Part shown: positions 45,651 through 62,302 of the stretch, one piece after another
How the letters are laid out: each line of letters begins with the position of its first letter
Numbering within the stretch: the first letter of the stretch is position 1
Assembly (NCBI GenBank): GCA_019636615.1
Contig: JAHBXF010000001.1
Span: 496,001 to 560,000 of the forward strand
Direction of reading: 5' to 3'
DNA length: 64,000 bases
DNA from: Phycisphaeraceae bacterium
GTDB taxonomy: Bacteria; Planctomycetota; Phycisphaerae; Phycisphaerales; UBA1924
Translations under genes and position numbers: made by a program
The notes under the pieces: model-generated
The model's input: only the letters and a program-made list of their open reading frames with translations
Told to the model about the DNA's origin: nothing
Database searches by the model: none

Positions 45651-47672
45651 TCATGGCAATACCGGCACACCCAACGCCCGCAGGTACTCAAACGTCGCGT
45701 CGTACATCCCGGGAGACCGTGTCGGGTCCGCTGTATCACCAGCGGGAACCACCACCACCATGCCCTGCCGCGCTCGCGTCAGGAGCACTCGGTATGCGTT
45801 CTTCAAGTAGGCCTTGCGGTCGGCATTGTTGATGCGCTGCCAGCGACTTCCCTTGAAACTCCAGTGCTGCCAGCCGCCGTTCGAATAGCGATAATCCCCA
45901 TCCCATACCACGCAGGCCCAGTCGAGTTCAAGCCCCTGAACGTCAAACTCTGTCGCGGCATCCTCTAGGTAAAACGAACTCCTCACGTCCTCACGCGGGT
46001 GCAAGAACCAGTGCACCGGGTTGATATCCACGCGCACATCGATCGCGTGCGGCTTGAGCCGCTGCGCCTGCGACGACACGACCATGCCATATCGCTCGTT
46101 GCCGCGGGCTCGCTGCCGCAGCCACGCCTTGGCTTTGGCGAGGTCCCGCGTCAGGACGACCGGATACCGATCGCGGATGCTTGCCAAGGAACTCGCGGCC
46201 GCTGCACGGTCGATGTCAAGCACGGCCTTGACCCACGCCGACACGTGCTCGGCCCGAAATGACCGCATCGACACGGACAGATGCAGGCTGTCGTGTGTCC
46301 GCACGTGCGCGTGCCCAGCGAGGAGGCCGATCGCGTCGCCCGCCGCGTATTCTGAATCGGTGAGGTGGGGCGACAAGTGCACGTGCCAATGCGGGAAATC
46401 GGACCGAATGGCGCGAAGCCACTCTCCGATTCCCGCCTCGCCGGTGTTGATCTCTTGGCCACCTCCCACAAGGCAGACAATCACCGCCCAATCGACGTGC
46501 CGGTCCATGCACGAGATCAGAAACGCCGGTTCGGACATCGCAAAGTTGGCGTGCCCCTTCTTCCGCTGCATAAACGCCGCGGTCTGTTCCTTGTTCCACG
46601 CTCGTTGGGCTTCGTCAAACAGCGCTACGTGCTCAATGGGCGGTTTGTAGCCGTCGCGGATGCACTCATCGCGGAAGTGGTGCACGTTCTGGATAAACGC
46701 TCGCACTTCGCTGCGGGCCTCGCCGAGCGTGACCCTCTTGCCCGATCTTGACGAACGCTCCGCTCGGTCGCGGGCCAGCGCCTCGCACAGGATCTTGACC
46801 AGCGGCCCATTGCCAGAGAGAAAAACGCTGTAGAGTTCGCTCGCTTTGTCGTGATGCTTCGTCGCTACGTCAAGCCCCACCAGCGTCTTGCCCGCACCGG
46901 GAACTCCCGTCACAAAGCAGATGGCTTTGTGCCGACCCGCCCGAGCATGGTGGATAATCTCGTCGATGTGCGCTGTTGTTTGTGTCAGGTTGATGGCCTC
47001 GGCTTCACGCCGCGAAATGTCCTCCACCCGGTGTCCGCCATAGAGAGCCAGCGCGGCTTCGATAATCGTCGGTGTGGGGCTGTACCTTCCCGCTGCCCAC
47101 TGCCACGCGTCGATCGAGGCCCCTGCGCACCACGCCCCGACCGCGCGCAGCAACTCGGCGAGTGTCCCAGGCGTCGCACGCAGCGGTCGCACCACGCCGT
47201 CGTGGTCGCTGGTGATCACCGCCTGCGCGCCGTGGTCCTTGGCCTCCGTCGCCACCAGCACCGGAACAATCGTCGCGTGGTGGCTGGCGCTATGGAAGTT
47301 CTTCATGTCCAGCGCATAATCCCAGACCTGGTTGAGCGCATCAGAGGTGAACTCGCGCTGACCGACTTTGAACTCCAGAACATACACGGCCGCGTCCAGA
47401 ACCAGCACCACGTCGATCCGTTTGCCCATCCGCGGCACGGCGAACTCGAAAGCGATCAGGCCATGCCCCGGCGCTTGCACGAGCGAGGCACGCATGATGA
47501 TGATCTGGGCCAGCCACGCGTCCCGTTGGGTGGGCTCAATGGCGAAGGACGACGAAGCGGCCAATCGACCAAGGATCGTCTCGTCACTGTCGGCGCGGAA
47601 GTCGTCGATACTCGCCGCGTAGTATGCGCGGGCGAGCGGGCGTGCGGTCTGTGGCTGCGGAGTATCGGCCAT
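45651..47672 (-). CDS. Nuclease-helicase fusion: PD-(D/E)XK-like domain plus DUF2075 (Schlafen-group-3-like) helicase
   Basis: 673 residues from ATG 47672 (a start at 47705 is also possible). The N-terminal domain has D87 in KRIDVVLVLD and E100-x-K102 in YVLEFKVGQ, a PD-(D/E)XK nuclease core. The rest is a DUF2075 helicase: Walker A VTGVPGAGKT (256-263), Walker B VALFDEAQRAW (353-356), and later motifs FDVQGLELDWACVVWDGD and YLKNAYRVLLTRARQGMVV typical of superfamily 1-like enzymes. DUF2075 proteins are often found in defence islands and resemble the human Schlafen helicase core. Cellular role unknown; RNA or DNA target undecided. It is flanked by the divergent 78-residue gene and by a region with a channel gene and insertion sequence. 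Confidence 0.8.
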   Translation of the reverse strand: MADTPQPQTARPLARAYYAASIDDFRADSDETILGRLAASSSFAIEPTQRDAWLAQIIIMRASLVQAPGHGLIAFEFAVPRMGKRIDVVLVLDAAVYVLEFKVGQREFTSDALNQVWDYALDMKNFHSASHHATIVPVLVATEAKDHGAQAVITSDHDGVVRPLRATPGTLAELLRAVGAWCAGASIDAWQWAAGRYSPTPTIIEAALALYGGHRVEDISRREAEAINLTQTTAHIDEIIHHARAGRHKAICFVTGVPGAGKTLVGLDVATKHHDKASELYSVFLSGNGPLVKILCEALARDRAERSSRSGKRVTLGEARSEVRAFIQNVHHFRDECIRDGYKPPIEHVALFDEAQRAWNKEQTAAFMQRKKGHANFAMSEPAFLISCMDRHVDWAVIVCLVGGGQEINTGEAGIGEWLRAIRSDFPHWHVHLSPHLTDSEYAAGDAIGLLAGHAHVRTHDSLHLSVSMRSFRAEHVSAWVKAVLDIDRAAAASSLASIRDRYPVVLTRDLAKAKAWLRQRARGNERYGMVVSSQAQRLKPHAIDVRVDINPVHWFLHPREDVRSSFYLEDAATEFDVQGLELDWACVVWDGDYRYSNGGWQHWSFKGSRWQRINNADRKAYLKNAYRVLLTRARQGMVVVVPAGDTADPTRSPGMYDATFEYLRALGVPVLP

Positions 47673-47731
47673 GCCCCACCAGGTTAACATCCTCTCGCGC
47701 ACCACGCCAAGGAAGACACGGAGAAGAACCC

Positions 47732-47968
47732 ATGCCAGGCTTGATCACCGACTCCCTCGTTTCTGAGTATGACGCGATGTTCGCCCGAGTGGGCGACAAC
47801 GCGACCGATGAGCAGATTGTCGCGGCGCTTGTGCAAGATTGCGCGTGGACTGAGCAAGGTGCGCACGAAGTCCTTCAACTTGCTCGGAAGTACGGAACCA
47901 GCATCCTGACGAATGCGCTCGCCCTCGCGTTTGCGATGCAGATTGAAGACGGCGATGCGGGACTCTGA
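47732..47968 (+). CDS. Small hypothetical protein divergent from the nuclease-helicase
   Basis: 78 residues, starting at ATG 47732 after GGAGAAG; the frame is open upstream but that part overlaps the helicase gene. The product is acidic, helical (SLVSEYDAMFARVGDNATDEQIVAALVQD; GAHEVLQLARKYGTSILTNALALAF) and soluble. No family recognised. The starts of this gene and the nuclease-helicase are 59 bases apart, so they share a promoter region; small partners next to toxic enzymes can be antitoxins or regulators, but that is only a possibility here. Confidence 0.55.
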   Translation: MPGLITDSLVSEYDAMFARVGDNATDEQIVAALVQDCAWTEQGAHEVLQLARKYGTSILTNALALAFAMQIEDGDAGL

Positions 47969-48423
47969 GGCGCACAGAACGCCTCATCGGGGCAGATATC
48001 GGCCCCTCTGGGCCATTGCCGAGATGCAGCGGCAGTGCCGTGATGGTCACTCGCGACAGAACCGCGGCGGGAGCCTCGCGAACTGATCTATGGACGCCTG
48101 CCGCGCGAGAATATCGGCGGGTGAAACACGCAGTCGTTCCAGCGTCGCGGCAACGACCTCTGGCCGGCCATGAGCATCGCCCGCTACGGTCGTCGCGGGC
48201 GTATGTTCTGGCGGTTGACGTCCCATCGCCGTCGCTTGGTGCTTTGAAACTCCTTTTCGGCCCACTGCACGCTTTGAAAAAAAGTGGGTGCAATTTTTCA
48301 AAGCGCCAGTGGCTTTGAAAAGGCGTAGCGTGGCGATAACTCTTTGAATATCAGGGACTTGCATTCTGAGTCTGCTCGGCAGCAGGTCAAAACCAGAGAG
48401 GGCTTCTGGGCATGTATCCCGGT
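47969..48423. other. Intergenic stretch with repeated GCTTTGAAA motifs
   Basis: No secure gene. A minus-strand frame (end of the stretch VVAATLERLRVSPADILARQ) looks slightly protein-like and may be a decayed gene. GC content drops towards the right, into the AT-rich island. The inverted and direct repeats at 48241-48319 are listed separately. Confidence 0.35.
48241..48319. repeat. GCTTTGAAA repeats with a perfect 11-base inverted repeat
   Basis: GCTTTGAAA occurs at 48241, 48271 and 48312, and in reverse at 48296. The copies at 48271-48281 and 48294-48304 form a perfect 11-base inverted repeat (GCTTTGAAAAA with TTTTTCAAAGC), and CCCAC/GTGGG lie next to it. It lies at the border of the AT-rich island and could be a hairpin, a recombination site or a mobile-element remnant. 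Confidence 0.5.
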
Positions 48424-49338
48424 TCAACTCCCACCACCGGCCTGACCACCACCGGCCTGACCACCACCGGCCTGACCACCACCGGCCTGACCACCACCGG
48501 CCTGACCACCACCGGCCTGACCACCACCGGCCTGACCACCACCGGCCTGACCACCACCGGCCTGACCACCACCGGCCTGACCACCACCGGCCTGACCACC
48601 ACCGGCCTGACCACCACCGGCCTGACCACCACCGATTGTGCCGCAGCCGACTTTATTAGGCATCATCGACATCCATCTTGCAATCAATACAACTATTATT
48701 ATGATGCCAGACATTCCTTGAATGGACGCAATTATTCTATTTATACCTTGCGGATAGAATTCACCATATCCAACAGTTGTCTGCGTTACCCACGAAAAGT
48801 GCAGAGCTTTCTCTATTGTCTCGCTTATCACCCATTGATGTTTGCAACTTCCGGATTGTATATAGCCAATGTTAAACGCGTACAATCCGGCAAAACACAC
48901 ACACAACTCAATGTAATTAAGAGCCGCAAGAACGACCACTCTCGACGGCGCACTGCTCACATGCACCGTGTGCTTCGACTCAAACTCATCAAAGAGGGAT
49001 ACTCGCAACGCAGTTGCTACTATATCTATTATTCGCCAACTTACAAATGCAATACACAATGCTTTGATCAAGTCGTCACCACTGCGCGACAGAATATACA
49101 AACACAACCAGCCCAGCAACATCATGGCCACTACAAAAATGTCCACCCTTATCGCACGAGCCTCGGACACAGCTTTGCGGTTTTTACATTTACACACCCT
49201 CGAATCCCCGAGTATTATAAAACTGGGAGCAGTGACAAGGCGTATTGTGTGCCACACCACGATCGCGACCCACCCCCTGGCACCATTGTCACAATTAGTG
49301 CTTATCGTGTTATTTTTTGTGCTGCCAGGATTCGTCAT
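48424..49338 (-). CDS. Potassium-channel-like membrane protein with a GGGQA-repeat tail
   Basis: 304 residues. The ATG at 49338 follows TTTGGAGG by five bases, which fixes the start. Four or five membrane segments (GWVAIVVWHTIRLVT; VDIFVVAMMLLGWLCLYIL; LIKALCIAFVSWRIIDIVA; VVVLAALNYIELCVCFAGLYA) precede a pore helix and filter, TQTTVGYGEFYP (TVGYG at 188-192), and a last helix IIASIQGMSGIIIIVVLIARW. TVGYG is the potassium selectivity filter of the two-helix-pore (Ion_trans_2) family. After the last helix the protein becomes 13 copies of GGGQA and ends GGGS. The gene is much richer in A+T than its surroundings, suggesting recent transfer. Its start overlaps the stop of a reading frame at the left end of the insertion sequence, as if it followed another gene in an operon. 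Confidence 0.75.
   Translation of the reverse strand: MTNPGSTKNNTISTNCDNGARGWVAIVVWHTIRLVTAPSFIILGDSRVCKCKNRKAVSEARAIRVDIFVVAMMLLGWLCLYILSRSGDDLIKALCIAFVSWRIIDIVATALRVSLFDEFESKHTVHVSSAPSRVVVLAALNYIELCVCFAGLYAFNIGYIQSGSCKHQWVISETIEKALHFSWVTQTTVGYGEFYPQGINRIIASIQGMSGIIIIVVLIARWMSMMPNKVGCGTIGGGQAGGGQAGGGQAGGGQAGGGQAGGGQAGGGQAGGGQAGGGQAGGGQAGGGQAGGGQAGGGQAGGGS
48427..48633. repeat. Tandem 15-base repeat (13 copies) encoding GGGQA
   Basis: The 15-base unit GGCCTGACCACCACC is repeated 13 times with no mismatch visible, coding on the minus strand for GGGQA in the channel's C-terminus. Perfect identity points to recent expansion by slippage or recombination. It is not CRISPR: no spacers and unit length too short. 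Confidence 0.9.
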
Positions 49339-49432
49339 GCTTACCTCCAAATGCGACGGCTGCGAATGGATGAGACTCGCTTTATCTTGTATGTTGGCCA
49401 CAAGCATAGCCCGCCTACAGATAGTTCAAGGT

Positions 49433-49451
49433 TCATGACTCGCTGCGCCTG
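49433..49451. repeat. Left inverted end of the IS1595-type element
   Basis: Nineteen bases, TCATGACTCGCTGCGCCTG, pairing with the right end at 15 positions. Confidence 0.6.
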
Positions 49452-49481
49452 TCCGGAAGTCCCGGGATAGACTGTTTTCCA

Positions 49482-50165
49482 GTGCAAAACCGCTACGTTG
49501 TCCGTTCCAGAATCTCGGAGGCCAGATTCCGCCGCTTTTTGCGGTGTGTGGCCGCCGATCTGACGGCGGTGCAGATCACCCAGCTCACTGGCCTGAACCG
49601 CAACACCGTCAATCGCCTGCTGGGCTGCCTGCGTGAACGCATGGCCCAGGCGTGCGAGCTCGAGCGGCCCTTCCGCGGCCACGTCGAGGTCGACGAGAGC
49701 TACTTCGGTCCGCGTCGCGTCAAGGGCAAGGTGGGCAGAGACGCGGGCCGGAAGACGATCGTGTTCGGCATCTGCAAGCGGCACGGCAAGGTCTACACGG
49801 AGGTGGTTCAGGATTGCTCAAAAGACACGATTCTGGCCGCAATTCGCGGCAAAGTGGACCTTCGGGCGGTCATCCACTCGGACGGCTTCAAGATCTACGA
49901 CGGGCTGGTGGACATGGGGTACAAGAAGCACCTGCGGGTCGATCACTCTCGCAACGAGTTCAGCAGCCGGACGATGCGCGGCAACCACATCAACGGGATC
50001 GAGGGGTTCTGGGGATACGCCAAGACCAGACTGGCGAGGTTTAGAGGGATGAACCCCAACACCTTCTACCTGCACCTCAAAGAGTGCGAGTTCCGCTTCA
50101 ATCACCGCCACGAGAACATCTACAAAGTCCTGCTTACCCTTTGCCGAAAGACCCCGCTCAGCTAG
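49482..50165 (+). CDS. IS1595-family transposase (DDE type)
   Basis: 227 residues from a GTG at 49482. It carries the IS1595 hallmarks: VDESYFGPRRVKGKVG with catalytic Asp71, VIHSDGFKIYDGL with Asp134, and HINGIEGFWGYAKTRL with Glu174, and ARFRGMNPNTFYLHLKECEFRFNH at the end. An N-terminal helix-turn-helix (LTAVQITQLTGLNRNTVNRLL) recognises the ends. Length matches the IS1016-like subgroup (about 220). All catalytic residues are intact, so the element could still be active. The GC-rich third positions resemble the host rather than the AT-rich channel gene, so this element arrived separately. Confidence 0.9.
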   Translation: MQNRYVVRSRISEARFRRFLRCVAADLTAVQITQLTGLNRNTVNRLLGCLRERMAQACELERPFRGHVEVDESYFGPRRVKGKVGRDAGRKTIVFGICKRHGKVYTEVVQDCSKDTILAAIRGKVDLRAVIHSDGFKIYDGLVDMGYKKHLRVDHSRNEFSSRTMRGNHINGIEGFWGYAKTRLARFRGMNPNTFYLHLKECEFRFNHRHENIYKVLLTLCRKTPLS

Positions 50166-50171
50166 TCATGA
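50153..50171. repeat. Right inverted end of the IS1595-type element
   Basis: Reverse complement of TCATGACTAGCTGAGCGGG. It also supplies the last codons and the stop of the truncated AlbA_2-type gene. Confidence 0.6.
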
Positions 50172-50424
50172 CATTCCGCAGTTGATCGACGATCTGTGCG
50201 GGGTTGAGTTCGGTGAGCACCTTGGTCTCCCAAGTTGACCTGCTGCCATCGTCTGCGAGACCAAGCACGATCACGCCCTCGCCGGAGTTGGCCATCGCCA
50301 CAATGTCCTTGATAAGTTCACAACAATCGCCGCGCTGCGCCGGGTCGAAGGCGGATTTGAAATCGACGGAGCCGGATTCCGTGGTCGCCTCCGCCGCGGC
50401 GTCAAGATGTTCTTGACATTCCAT
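50158..50424 (-). pseudogene. Schlafen/AlbA_2-type gene truncated by the insertion sequence
   Basis: Only the first 85 or so codons remain (ATG at 50424 after GAGG). They read ESGSVDFKSAFDP...CCELIKDIVAMANSGEGVIVLGLADDG, the start of an AlbA_2 (Schlafen-type, formerly AAA_4) domain, in which ExxxxEFK and the N-S-x-G-G-x-x-x-x-G loop bind nucleic acid or nucleotide. AlbA_2 domains continue for another 30-60 residues and most proteins are longer, but here the frame runs into the IS end and stops (RNVMTS). Beyond the IS, at its left flank, a frame ending LELSVGG...RIWR stops in the ribosome binding site of the channel gene, which could be the original C-terminus. Inactive as it stands. Confidence 0.7.
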
Positions 50425-50595: not shown

Positions 50596-52419
50596 CTATA
50601 CGGTCTGTTCTTTGAGCGTTCCGAGTTTGGAACCAAGACCGCGGTTGATGGCAAAGTCAACGTGATACCGCGGCAGGACCGCGGCGGTCAACGACTCTTC
50701 ATCCCACAAGCGTTTCAGTTCTTCGAGGGTCCACTGCCCGCTCTGCCGGAGCGCCATCGCGCCCATGACGGTCTCGACCAACTGTTGCTCGAACCACTCG
50801 CGCACGACCTGTTCGATTGCGGGGCGGGCACCCGGCACTTGCGCATACTTCTTCGCCCACCGATCCGTCATGTCGGTGAACACGCGGAAGTCGCCGTTGA
50901 TGAGGAGGAGATTCTGGTCCGGGAGAAAGCGTGCGGCCCGGTCTTCCAAGTCGCCCTTTGTCCTGGTGCCTTCGGCGACCGTCACCCATTTCCGTTCCGG
51001 CTCAACGGGGCTGTTCACCTCCTCCGCCGACACGCCGCCGCGTGTAGCGAGGAAGAGCGCATACACATCGCCCGCGCGACCGCCACGCCCGCCGCCGCCG
51101 CCGCCACCCCCGCCGCCCATGTCTGTCTGCTTCGGCGTCCCGCCGGGTGTGAGCGAGTCGTCGTCAATGAGATGTTGGCCGTTCTGCGCGGGTCGATACC
51201 TGCTGAAATGGAACAACTCGCGCATACGCTTCAAGCGGTCCCGGATCGCAGCGCGGTGATCCGATGGGCTTGACTTGGCGCTGATCTCCTCCATGAGGTC
51301 TGAGATCGGCTGCGGCAGGTTGTCGCGGAACTCTGCGGCCCAATCTGACCAAGGCAGCGGCACGCCGTCACAAAGCAGATTCGTCCGGGCGATGTTGGCG
51401 GTCACCGACACCCCGGCATCTGTCTTGGGCTCCAAGTACATCACCACCCGGTTGCAGCCGAAGATGACCCCGAAACCTTGCAGCCGAGCGACACCGGCTC
51501 GCGCCCCGACCAACTCGTACAACTCGTCTTGGTAGAGCGCGGCGATATGCCCACCACCGGCGTAGTGGCCCGAATCGTCGTCCACCGTTTCCTTCAGAAT
51601 CCACCAGTGCGCCTTGGCCGTGGACAGATCGACCGTGCCCTTGGCCTGCGAGTTCTGGTCGAGCCACGGCTTCTGCCCAGTGACTTCTCGCAAGAAACTG
51701 TGCCGGTCAGACTGCCCCTTCTCCCACCCTTCGCGCGACTTGGCCAGCACACCGGACGGGAATTGGAGATACCGGGTGTTCAAGTACCGCAAAATCCAGC
51801 GAGAGGGCATGGGCGTGCCCGCCGGGGCGGTCATCGTGTTCTCCTTCTCTTCCTTACCGAGAAGGATCACCATCGTCCCGTTTTCCTTGATCGGCTCTGG
51901 TTTGAGCGTGTCGTCGATGTAGCCCCAGTACTCCTCGCGCCCGTCGGGATGCTTCATGCGCTTCAAGCCGTATTCGTTGTTCTCTGGGTCGCGCCACAGG
52001 TGAATGATGTACCCGACGCCGTCCTTCCAACTCAAATACACGAGACCTTCGGGGTTGCGGGGCAGCGCTGAGATTTTCGCGCCGACGCCGAAGTTTCCGT
52101 GTCGGCTTTGCTCGTGCATCGAGGAGGACAACTTGTTGATGTACTCAACCATCTCCTCGCCGGTCATGCCCACACCGTTGTCGATCACGGCGAGTTTGGT
52201 CTGACCCGTCAGAGTCTGGTGATTCCAGGCGACATCCCAGCGAAGCTCGCCCTTCTTTCCGGGTGACTTGCGGATGCTCTCGATCGCGTTTTGTGTGAGC
52301 TCCCGCACGAACTGGAGAGGAGCACAATCCTCTCCCAACTTATCCACCATGAAGGTCATGTTGGCGACCGACATGGGGAGCGTGCGATTGGACGACGGCG
52401 CGCTACGGCCTTGAGCCAT
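50596..52419 (-). CDS. GHKL (Hsp90-like) ATPase of unknown function
   Basis: 607 residues; the ATG at 52419 follows AAGGAG by seven bases. The N-terminal Bergerat fold has the N-box FVRELTQNAIESI (Glu40, Asn44), G1 box VIDNGVGM (Asp80), and G2 box HGNFGVGAKIS, as in Hsp90, MutL and MORC ATPases. The middle contains a region with YLNTRYLQFPSGVLAKSREG and LVGARAGVARLQGFGVIFG; a linker of ten glycines (around 437-447) separates a C-terminal helical domain. Related GHKL ATPases occur in bacterial defence systems and in MORC proteins, but no exact family is recognised. In orientation it is followed by the AlbA_2 fragment and the channel gene, which suggests an operon. Confidence 0.7.
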   Translation of the reverse strand: MAQGRSAPSSNRTLPMSVANMTFMVDKLGEDCAPLQFVRELTQNAIESIRKSPGKKGELRWDVAWNHQTLTGQTKLAVIDNGVGMTGEEMVEYINKLSSSMHEQSRHGNFGVGAKISALPRNPEGLVYLSWKDGVGYIIHLWRDPENNEYGLKRMKHPDGREEYWGYIDDTLKPEPIKENGTMVILLGKEEKENTMTAPAGTPMPSRWILRYLNTRYLQFPSGVLAKSREGWEKGQSDRHSFLREVTGQKPWLDQNSQAKGTVDLSTAKAHWWILKETVDDDSGHYAGGGHIAALYQDELYELVGARAGVARLQGFGVIFGCNRVVMYLEPKTDAGVSVTANIARTNLLCDGVPLPWSDWAAEFRDNLPQPISDLMEEISAKSSPSDHRAAIRDRLKRMRELFHFSRYRPAQNGQHLIDDDSLTPGGTPKQTDMGGGGGGGGGGRGGRAGDVYALFLATRGGVSAEEVNSPVEPERKWVTVAEGTRTKGDLEDRAARFLPDQNLLLINGDFRVFTDMTDRWAKKYAQVPGARPAIEQVVREWFEQQLVETVMGAMALRQSGQWTLEELKRLWDEESLTAAVLPRYHVDFAINRGLGSKLGTLKEQTV

Positions 52420-61951: not shown

Positions 61952-62302
61952 GGGGCCGAACTGGATTCGACCGGGCAGGGAAGGCTCGACGTGGCGCGTC
62001 GTGGCGCACGCTGGCCACGTAAAAAGCGTGCAAAAACAATAACTGCCAACAACAGCGGTTATCGCCTCGCGGCCTAATTAGGCCGCACGCACACCCCAAG
62101 ACGCCTGATAATGGGGTTGCGTAGACATCAGGCTGGCGGGTGATGGATGCTCTCGGCATCACCCGTGACATAACGCCGCGGGCTGGACGAGCGCGAAGAC
62201 TGCCGATGGCCGTCGCGCTGGTCAAGATCAAACCATCGGACACACGCGTAGAAGCGGCGTGCTGACTGCAACGGGACTGGGGTTCAACTCCCCACGGCTC
62301 CA
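61952..62302 (+). ncRNA. ssrA: Transfer-messenger RNA (tmRNA)
   Basis: The RNA opens GGGGCCGAACTGGATTCGACC and closes with GGGTTCAACTCCC then CGGCTCCA, pairing with the 5' end as a tRNA-like acceptor; both features are diagnostic of tmRNA. The resume codon GCA is at 62030 and the tag reads AKTITANNSGYRLAA with stop TAA at 62075-62077. The LAA end is the standard degradation signal. Pseudoknot stems (for example CCTCGCGGCC with TTAGGCCGC around the stop, and GCCTGATA with CATCAGGC) follow. Together with SmpB it frees stalled ribosomes and marks the product for proteolysis. One-piece form, about 351 bases, the usual length. Confidence 0.95.

Follow-up and report, generated by a model that had tools for sequence, protein, structure and literature searches.

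A small K+-channel-like gene with an in-frame minisatellite at its 3' end in a Phycisphaeraceae bacterium

The channel gene and its repeat tail

We examined a 64,000-nucleotide stretch of a Phycisphaeraceae genome (contig JAHBXF010000001.1, positions 496,001 to 560,000; hereafter the window), in which a putative membrane channel gene ends in a perfect tandem repeat and lies beside an old insertion sequence. The features concerned are:

48424..49338, minus strand: channel gene, 304 aa, recognised by Pfam Ion_trans_2, hydropathy, composition and homologues (L060/L062, L063 and L064)
49343..49348, minus strand: Shine-Dalgarno sequence GGAGGT, 4 nt before the ATG at 49336-49338, read from the sequence
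48431..48634, minus strand: tandem array, 13 full 15-mer copies plus a terminal 9-mer, CCACCACCG (written on the plus strand), which reads as (GGGQA)13 in the frame of the channel
49430..50172, plus strand: decayed IS1595-family element with its transposase at 49482-50165 (NF033547, E=4.8e-46), its ends set by relatives
50173..50424, minus strand: 5' remnant of an AlbA_2 gene (PF04326 positions 1-48 of 118; PDC-S50 positions 5-86 of 387)

As the first-pass annotation had proposed, the channel gene encodes a membrane protein with a TVGYG filter: the 304-aa minus-strand ORF matches PF07885 (Ion_trans_2) with E=1.4e-10 and 41.4 bits against a Pfam cut-off of 22.5, the match spanning aa 171-249 in a 327-aa long form of the protein. 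Judging by hydropathy and composition, two N-terminal transmembrane helices are followed by a further transmembrane helix, a pore helix with TVGYG and an inner helix, after which a short linker leads into the 13 GGGQA units and a TGA stop. The K+ filter motif TxGYG is present as QTTVGYGEF after the pore helix, where it aligns with the relatives. Ion_trans_2 was the sole match in Pfam and NCBIfam; neither an RCK/TrkA_C nor a cyclic-nucleotide domain was found. K+-selective activity is well established for P-loop channels with an intact pore, and the pore is intact here by sequence, making a K+-selective channel the likely activity.

The start at 49338 given by the same annotation held up, and we prefer it because the Shine-Dalgarno sequence lies 4 nt upstream, whereas the alternative upstream ATG at 49407 has none. 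Since the 15-mer unit is open in five of six frames, an open frame does not by itself argue for coding; the minus-strand frame is favoured because of the Pfam match, the Shine-Dalgarno sequence and homologues aligned over ~246 residues. On the plus strand, the Pfam matches of a 352-aa ORF with GLTTT repeats were all low-complexity and below threshold (GLTT, 16.8 bits versus 21), and we rejected this ORF as coding.

Tandem Repeats Finder (TRF) described the array as having period 15, 13.6 copies, 100% matches and a score of 408. Read on the plus strand it is (CCACCACCGGCCTGA)13 followed by the terminal 9-mer, so that an identical 9-mer stands at both ends. In the protein, 13 consecutive GGGQA units precede GGGS and the stop, and both the TRF result and this unit count agree with the initial description of 13 perfect repeats from identical 15-base units. 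These are perfect tandem units of a length divisible by three, in frame inside an ORF, as in an in-frame coding minisatellite. The resulting tail of ~69 residues per subunit holds only Gly, Gln and Ala besides its final Ser, with no charge and no aromatics.

A chance origin of the array is excluded, because a 17-base unit probe matched 13 times within it, whereas shuffling predicts 0.57 matches for the entire window. TRF reported no further array above four copies in the window, and in 464 kb of the genome (the window plus 20 sampled stretches) we found no second array with at least five copies and at least 95% identity. A 27-base two-unit probe, allowing two mismatches, had no match elsewhere in the 3.84-Mb genome. 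The array was likewise missing from the 399 other genomes searched within the order, one per species and including three of the same genus; a degenerate two-unit probe occurred in one of these 399, once and without an array.

Several other accounts of the array were considered and set aside. The flank GGTTCAACTCCC (48421-48432) directly adjoins it, and the tmRNA T-loop has the same 12 nt at 62281-62292; with no tRNA predicted at this flank and no Rfam match there, the identity is probably due to chance rather than to a tRNA/tmRNA attachment site. DNA secondary structure was not unusual (z of -1.05 and -1.48), which does not suggest it as the array's purpose. GGGQA arrays in viral contigs came down to two chance or linker-type matches in unrelated ORFs, and the likeness of the tail's start, IGGGQAG, to a Rossmann FAD motif is too short to count in a Gly-rich stretch. 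Of note, GCTTTGAAA recurs several times at 48237-48320, ~100-200 bp beyond the stop of the channel gene; the copies face both ways and include a 12-bp perfect hairpin, CGCTTTGAAAAA/TTTTTCAAAGCG.

Base composition and neighbouring genes

The array has a GC content of 73.5%, compared with 45% for the rest of the channel gene, and the composition breaks near the last codons preceding it. This bears out the earlier observation of a GC-rich repeat in an otherwise AT-rich gene. The conclusion attached to it, that the tail has a separate history, fails: because Gly and Ala codons start with GG or GC, encoding GGGQA takes at least 9 G/C per 15 bases (at least 60% GC) whatever its origin, and the array needs no foreign source. 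What deviates is the channel core, with 45% GC and a GC3 of 0.49 in a genome of 67% GC whose neighbouring genes have GC3 values of 0.77-0.88. Such an atypical core was probably acquired, and on these compositional grounds we regard horizontal acquisition of the channel gene as probable.

The neighbourhood carries further marks of mobile DNA. The ends of the IS1595 copy, which lies upstream of the channel, are defined by relatives at 74-88% identity, with the inverted repeat GGGTCATGACTAGCTGAGC. At least two of these relatives (L051 and L052) have 8-bp target duplications; in the window copy both ends are decayed and there is no target duplication. We considered whether the channel had been a passenger of this element and rejected the idea, as the IS relatives end at 49429/49430, leaving the channel outside, and relatives stand alone. 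At the right-hand border of the element the AlbA_2 gene breaks off, and we did not find its 3' portion in the vicinity. On the other side of the channel, the stretch 45651-48006 holds a Schlafen group 3 helicase of the candidate defence family PDC-S41 (E=1.1e-284) together with a small ORF at 47733-47968; their DNA is 90% identical to that of a second genus in the family and 79% identical to that of a third. A nearby ECF sigma factor reaches only ~50% protein identity, far below the helicase module. The helicase and small ORF are, as these identities indicate, a mobile module. Given the IS, the truncated AlbA_2 gene and this highly similar module, the locus appears as a patchwork of mobile, defence-like genes. 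We also noted, at 50596-52419, a 607-aa HSP90-like ATPase protein that contains a Gly-rich run and had no counterpart in the 36 relatives searched.

Relatives of the channel and origin of the tail

Searches of 392 genomes from the phylum and 397 from the class gave few relatives of the channel, and none were found in phages, plasmids or viral contigs. There was no close relative; the best were L060/L062 (26% identity over 246 aa), L063 and L064. L060/L062 and L063 share with the channel its pair of helices, the pore and a conserved segment that aligns with PSRVVVLAALNYIEL; L064 shows this layout more weakly. In L060, a DUF1559-type pseudopilin gene adjoins the channel. The tails after the inner helix measure ~35 aa in L060/L062, ~90 in L063 and ~25 in L064 and are mutually unrelated, and more distant channels from the window's own order (L010, L011, L014 and L017) end 12-18 aa past the inner helix, giving an overall range of 12-90 aa. 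Neither an RCK nor a cyclic-nucleotide domain was found in any of these relatives. Such bare C-termini indicate that the array is an addition and that no domain was replaced. The first-pass annotation was thus right that the tail does not resemble RCK or cyclic-nucleotide domains, but this does not set the protein apart, as its relatives do without them too; it had also named a normal cytoplasmic domain in homologues as grounds against its claim, and none of the relatives has one. A clean empty site was not found in relatives, the flanking genes being non-syntenic in the genomes compared.

On balance, we favour the reading that a small K+-channel-like gene, probably acquired horizontally, had a naturally short cytoplasmic C-terminus that was lengthened by in-frame expansion of a 15-bp minisatellite. 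A gene with four transmembrane helices, two of them additional to the pore module, would have arrived by horizontal acquisition, its short C-terminus containing a seed of 1.6 units flanked by two copies of CCACCACCG. Replication slippage between these 9-bp direct repeats, six bases apart, could then have enlarged the seed to the present array. The shortest ancestor of this kind, at 1.6 units, would end in IGGGQAGGGS-stop in the same frame (...MMPNKVGCGTIGGGQAGGGS), about as short as the relatives' tails, and the pre-expansion C-terminus under the slippage model would be ...GTIGGGQAGGGS-stop. With a unit of 15 nt, any gain or loss of units preserves both the frame and the stop codon. The complete identity of the copies means that the expansion is either young or was recently homogenised, and for the same reason the tail offers no synonymous sites for gauging selection.

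It is conceivable, if unlikely, that what stands next to the old IS is instead the decaying remnant of a horizontally acquired gene that has lost its original C-terminus and now reads into unrelated repeats, making the tail accidental. The composition break just ahead of the array would fit such a loss, as would the truncation of the neighbouring AlbA gene and the worn IS ends, and the tails of L060 and L063 are longer and charged or helical. Yet the channel frame is intact, its Shine-Dalgarno sequence perfect and every filter residue present, and the other relatives, with their closely matched tails of 12-18 aa, show that nothing need be missing. Far less credible is an assembly artefact that created the array or altered its copy number. 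The perfect identity of the units and the single genome representing the species might raise that suspicion, but the array sits well within a 1.93-Mb contig of a two-contig assembly, which suggests long reads, and these easily span 204 bp; moreover, another long array in the genome was assembled with divergent units.

The tail could also be a functional module under selection, a rheostat driven by slippage in which the number of repeats determines how long a cytoplasmic brush is and thereby tunes gating or the assembly of the tetramer. We consider this quite improbable. In its favour, the unit preserves the frame, pure, many-copy repeats are in general the most unstable kind (PMC3899988), and the C-terminus of KcsA influences tetramer stability and gating (PMC9405666). 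However, no relative examined has such a tail, and the KcsA effect works through a helical bundle with electrostatic contacts (PMC9405666), which GGGQA cannot provide. In a bolder version, which strikes us as very improbable, a frame-preserving, slippage-driven repeat would exert tunable length control on the cytoplasmic mouth of a bacterial K+ channel, with channel assembly or gating varying between subpopulations.

The tail in the light of known systems

Returning to expansion from a naturally short C-terminus, the tail presumably lies in the cytoplasm, since by what we know of the fold the inner helix leads into it. Its composition predicts that it is probably disordered; an AlphaFold model of the channel reached a pLDDT of 44 from an alignment of two sequences only, too poor to say anything about the tail. 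A disordered cytoplasmic tail would be tolerated because the channel family needs no folded cytoplasmic domain, and any influence on the pore would be at most mild. Most likely the tail's effect is mild or neutral.

In its architecture the protein resembles small bacterial Ion_trans_2 (PF07885) channels without a regulatory domain, which have the same TVGYG pore module, extra N-terminal helices and a short C-terminus. It differs from them in the repeat tail, found in none of the relatives examined, and in its N-terminal half, to which only a few distant relatives align, at 26% identity. With KcsA it shares a TVGYG-type pore and, by knowledge of the fold, a cytoplasmic C-terminus, which in KcsA is a tetramer-stabilising bundle. 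The array itself is of a kind already known, an in-frame minisatellite in a coding gene, and is a fairly ordinary repeat expansion. Like other such minisatellites (PMC3899988), it has a unit that is a multiple of three, perfect tandem copies and a partial copy at its boundary; unlike the usual examples, it lies in a channel gene rather than in a surface protein or phase-variable gene, and it is known from one genome. The mycobacterial PE_PGRS genes (PMC1762029) likewise carry GC-rich repetitive DNA as a C-terminal extension with in-frame indels, but they form a large, old family with heterogeneous repeats, whereas here a single gene has identical units.

The same genome holds another Gly-rich expansion. 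A GH56 hyaluronidase-like protein (L082:17044-19107) contains, between the enzyme domain and a segment at the C-terminus, an in-frame 30-bp array that encodes GGGSGGGGDT in ~18 diverged units; this array is older than that of the channel. Its presence indicates that the genome tolerates Gly-rich expansions. Incidentally, 7-bp arrays of the CGGCATT and AATGCCT types occur at two separate places in the genome (L083:10672-10955 and L075:18132-18379).

Taken together, the locus offers a clean example of how a young in-frame minisatellite gives a membrane channel a probably disordered tail, in a lineage tolerant of Gly-rich expansions. If copy number varied and altered conductance, this would be a length-tuned channel.
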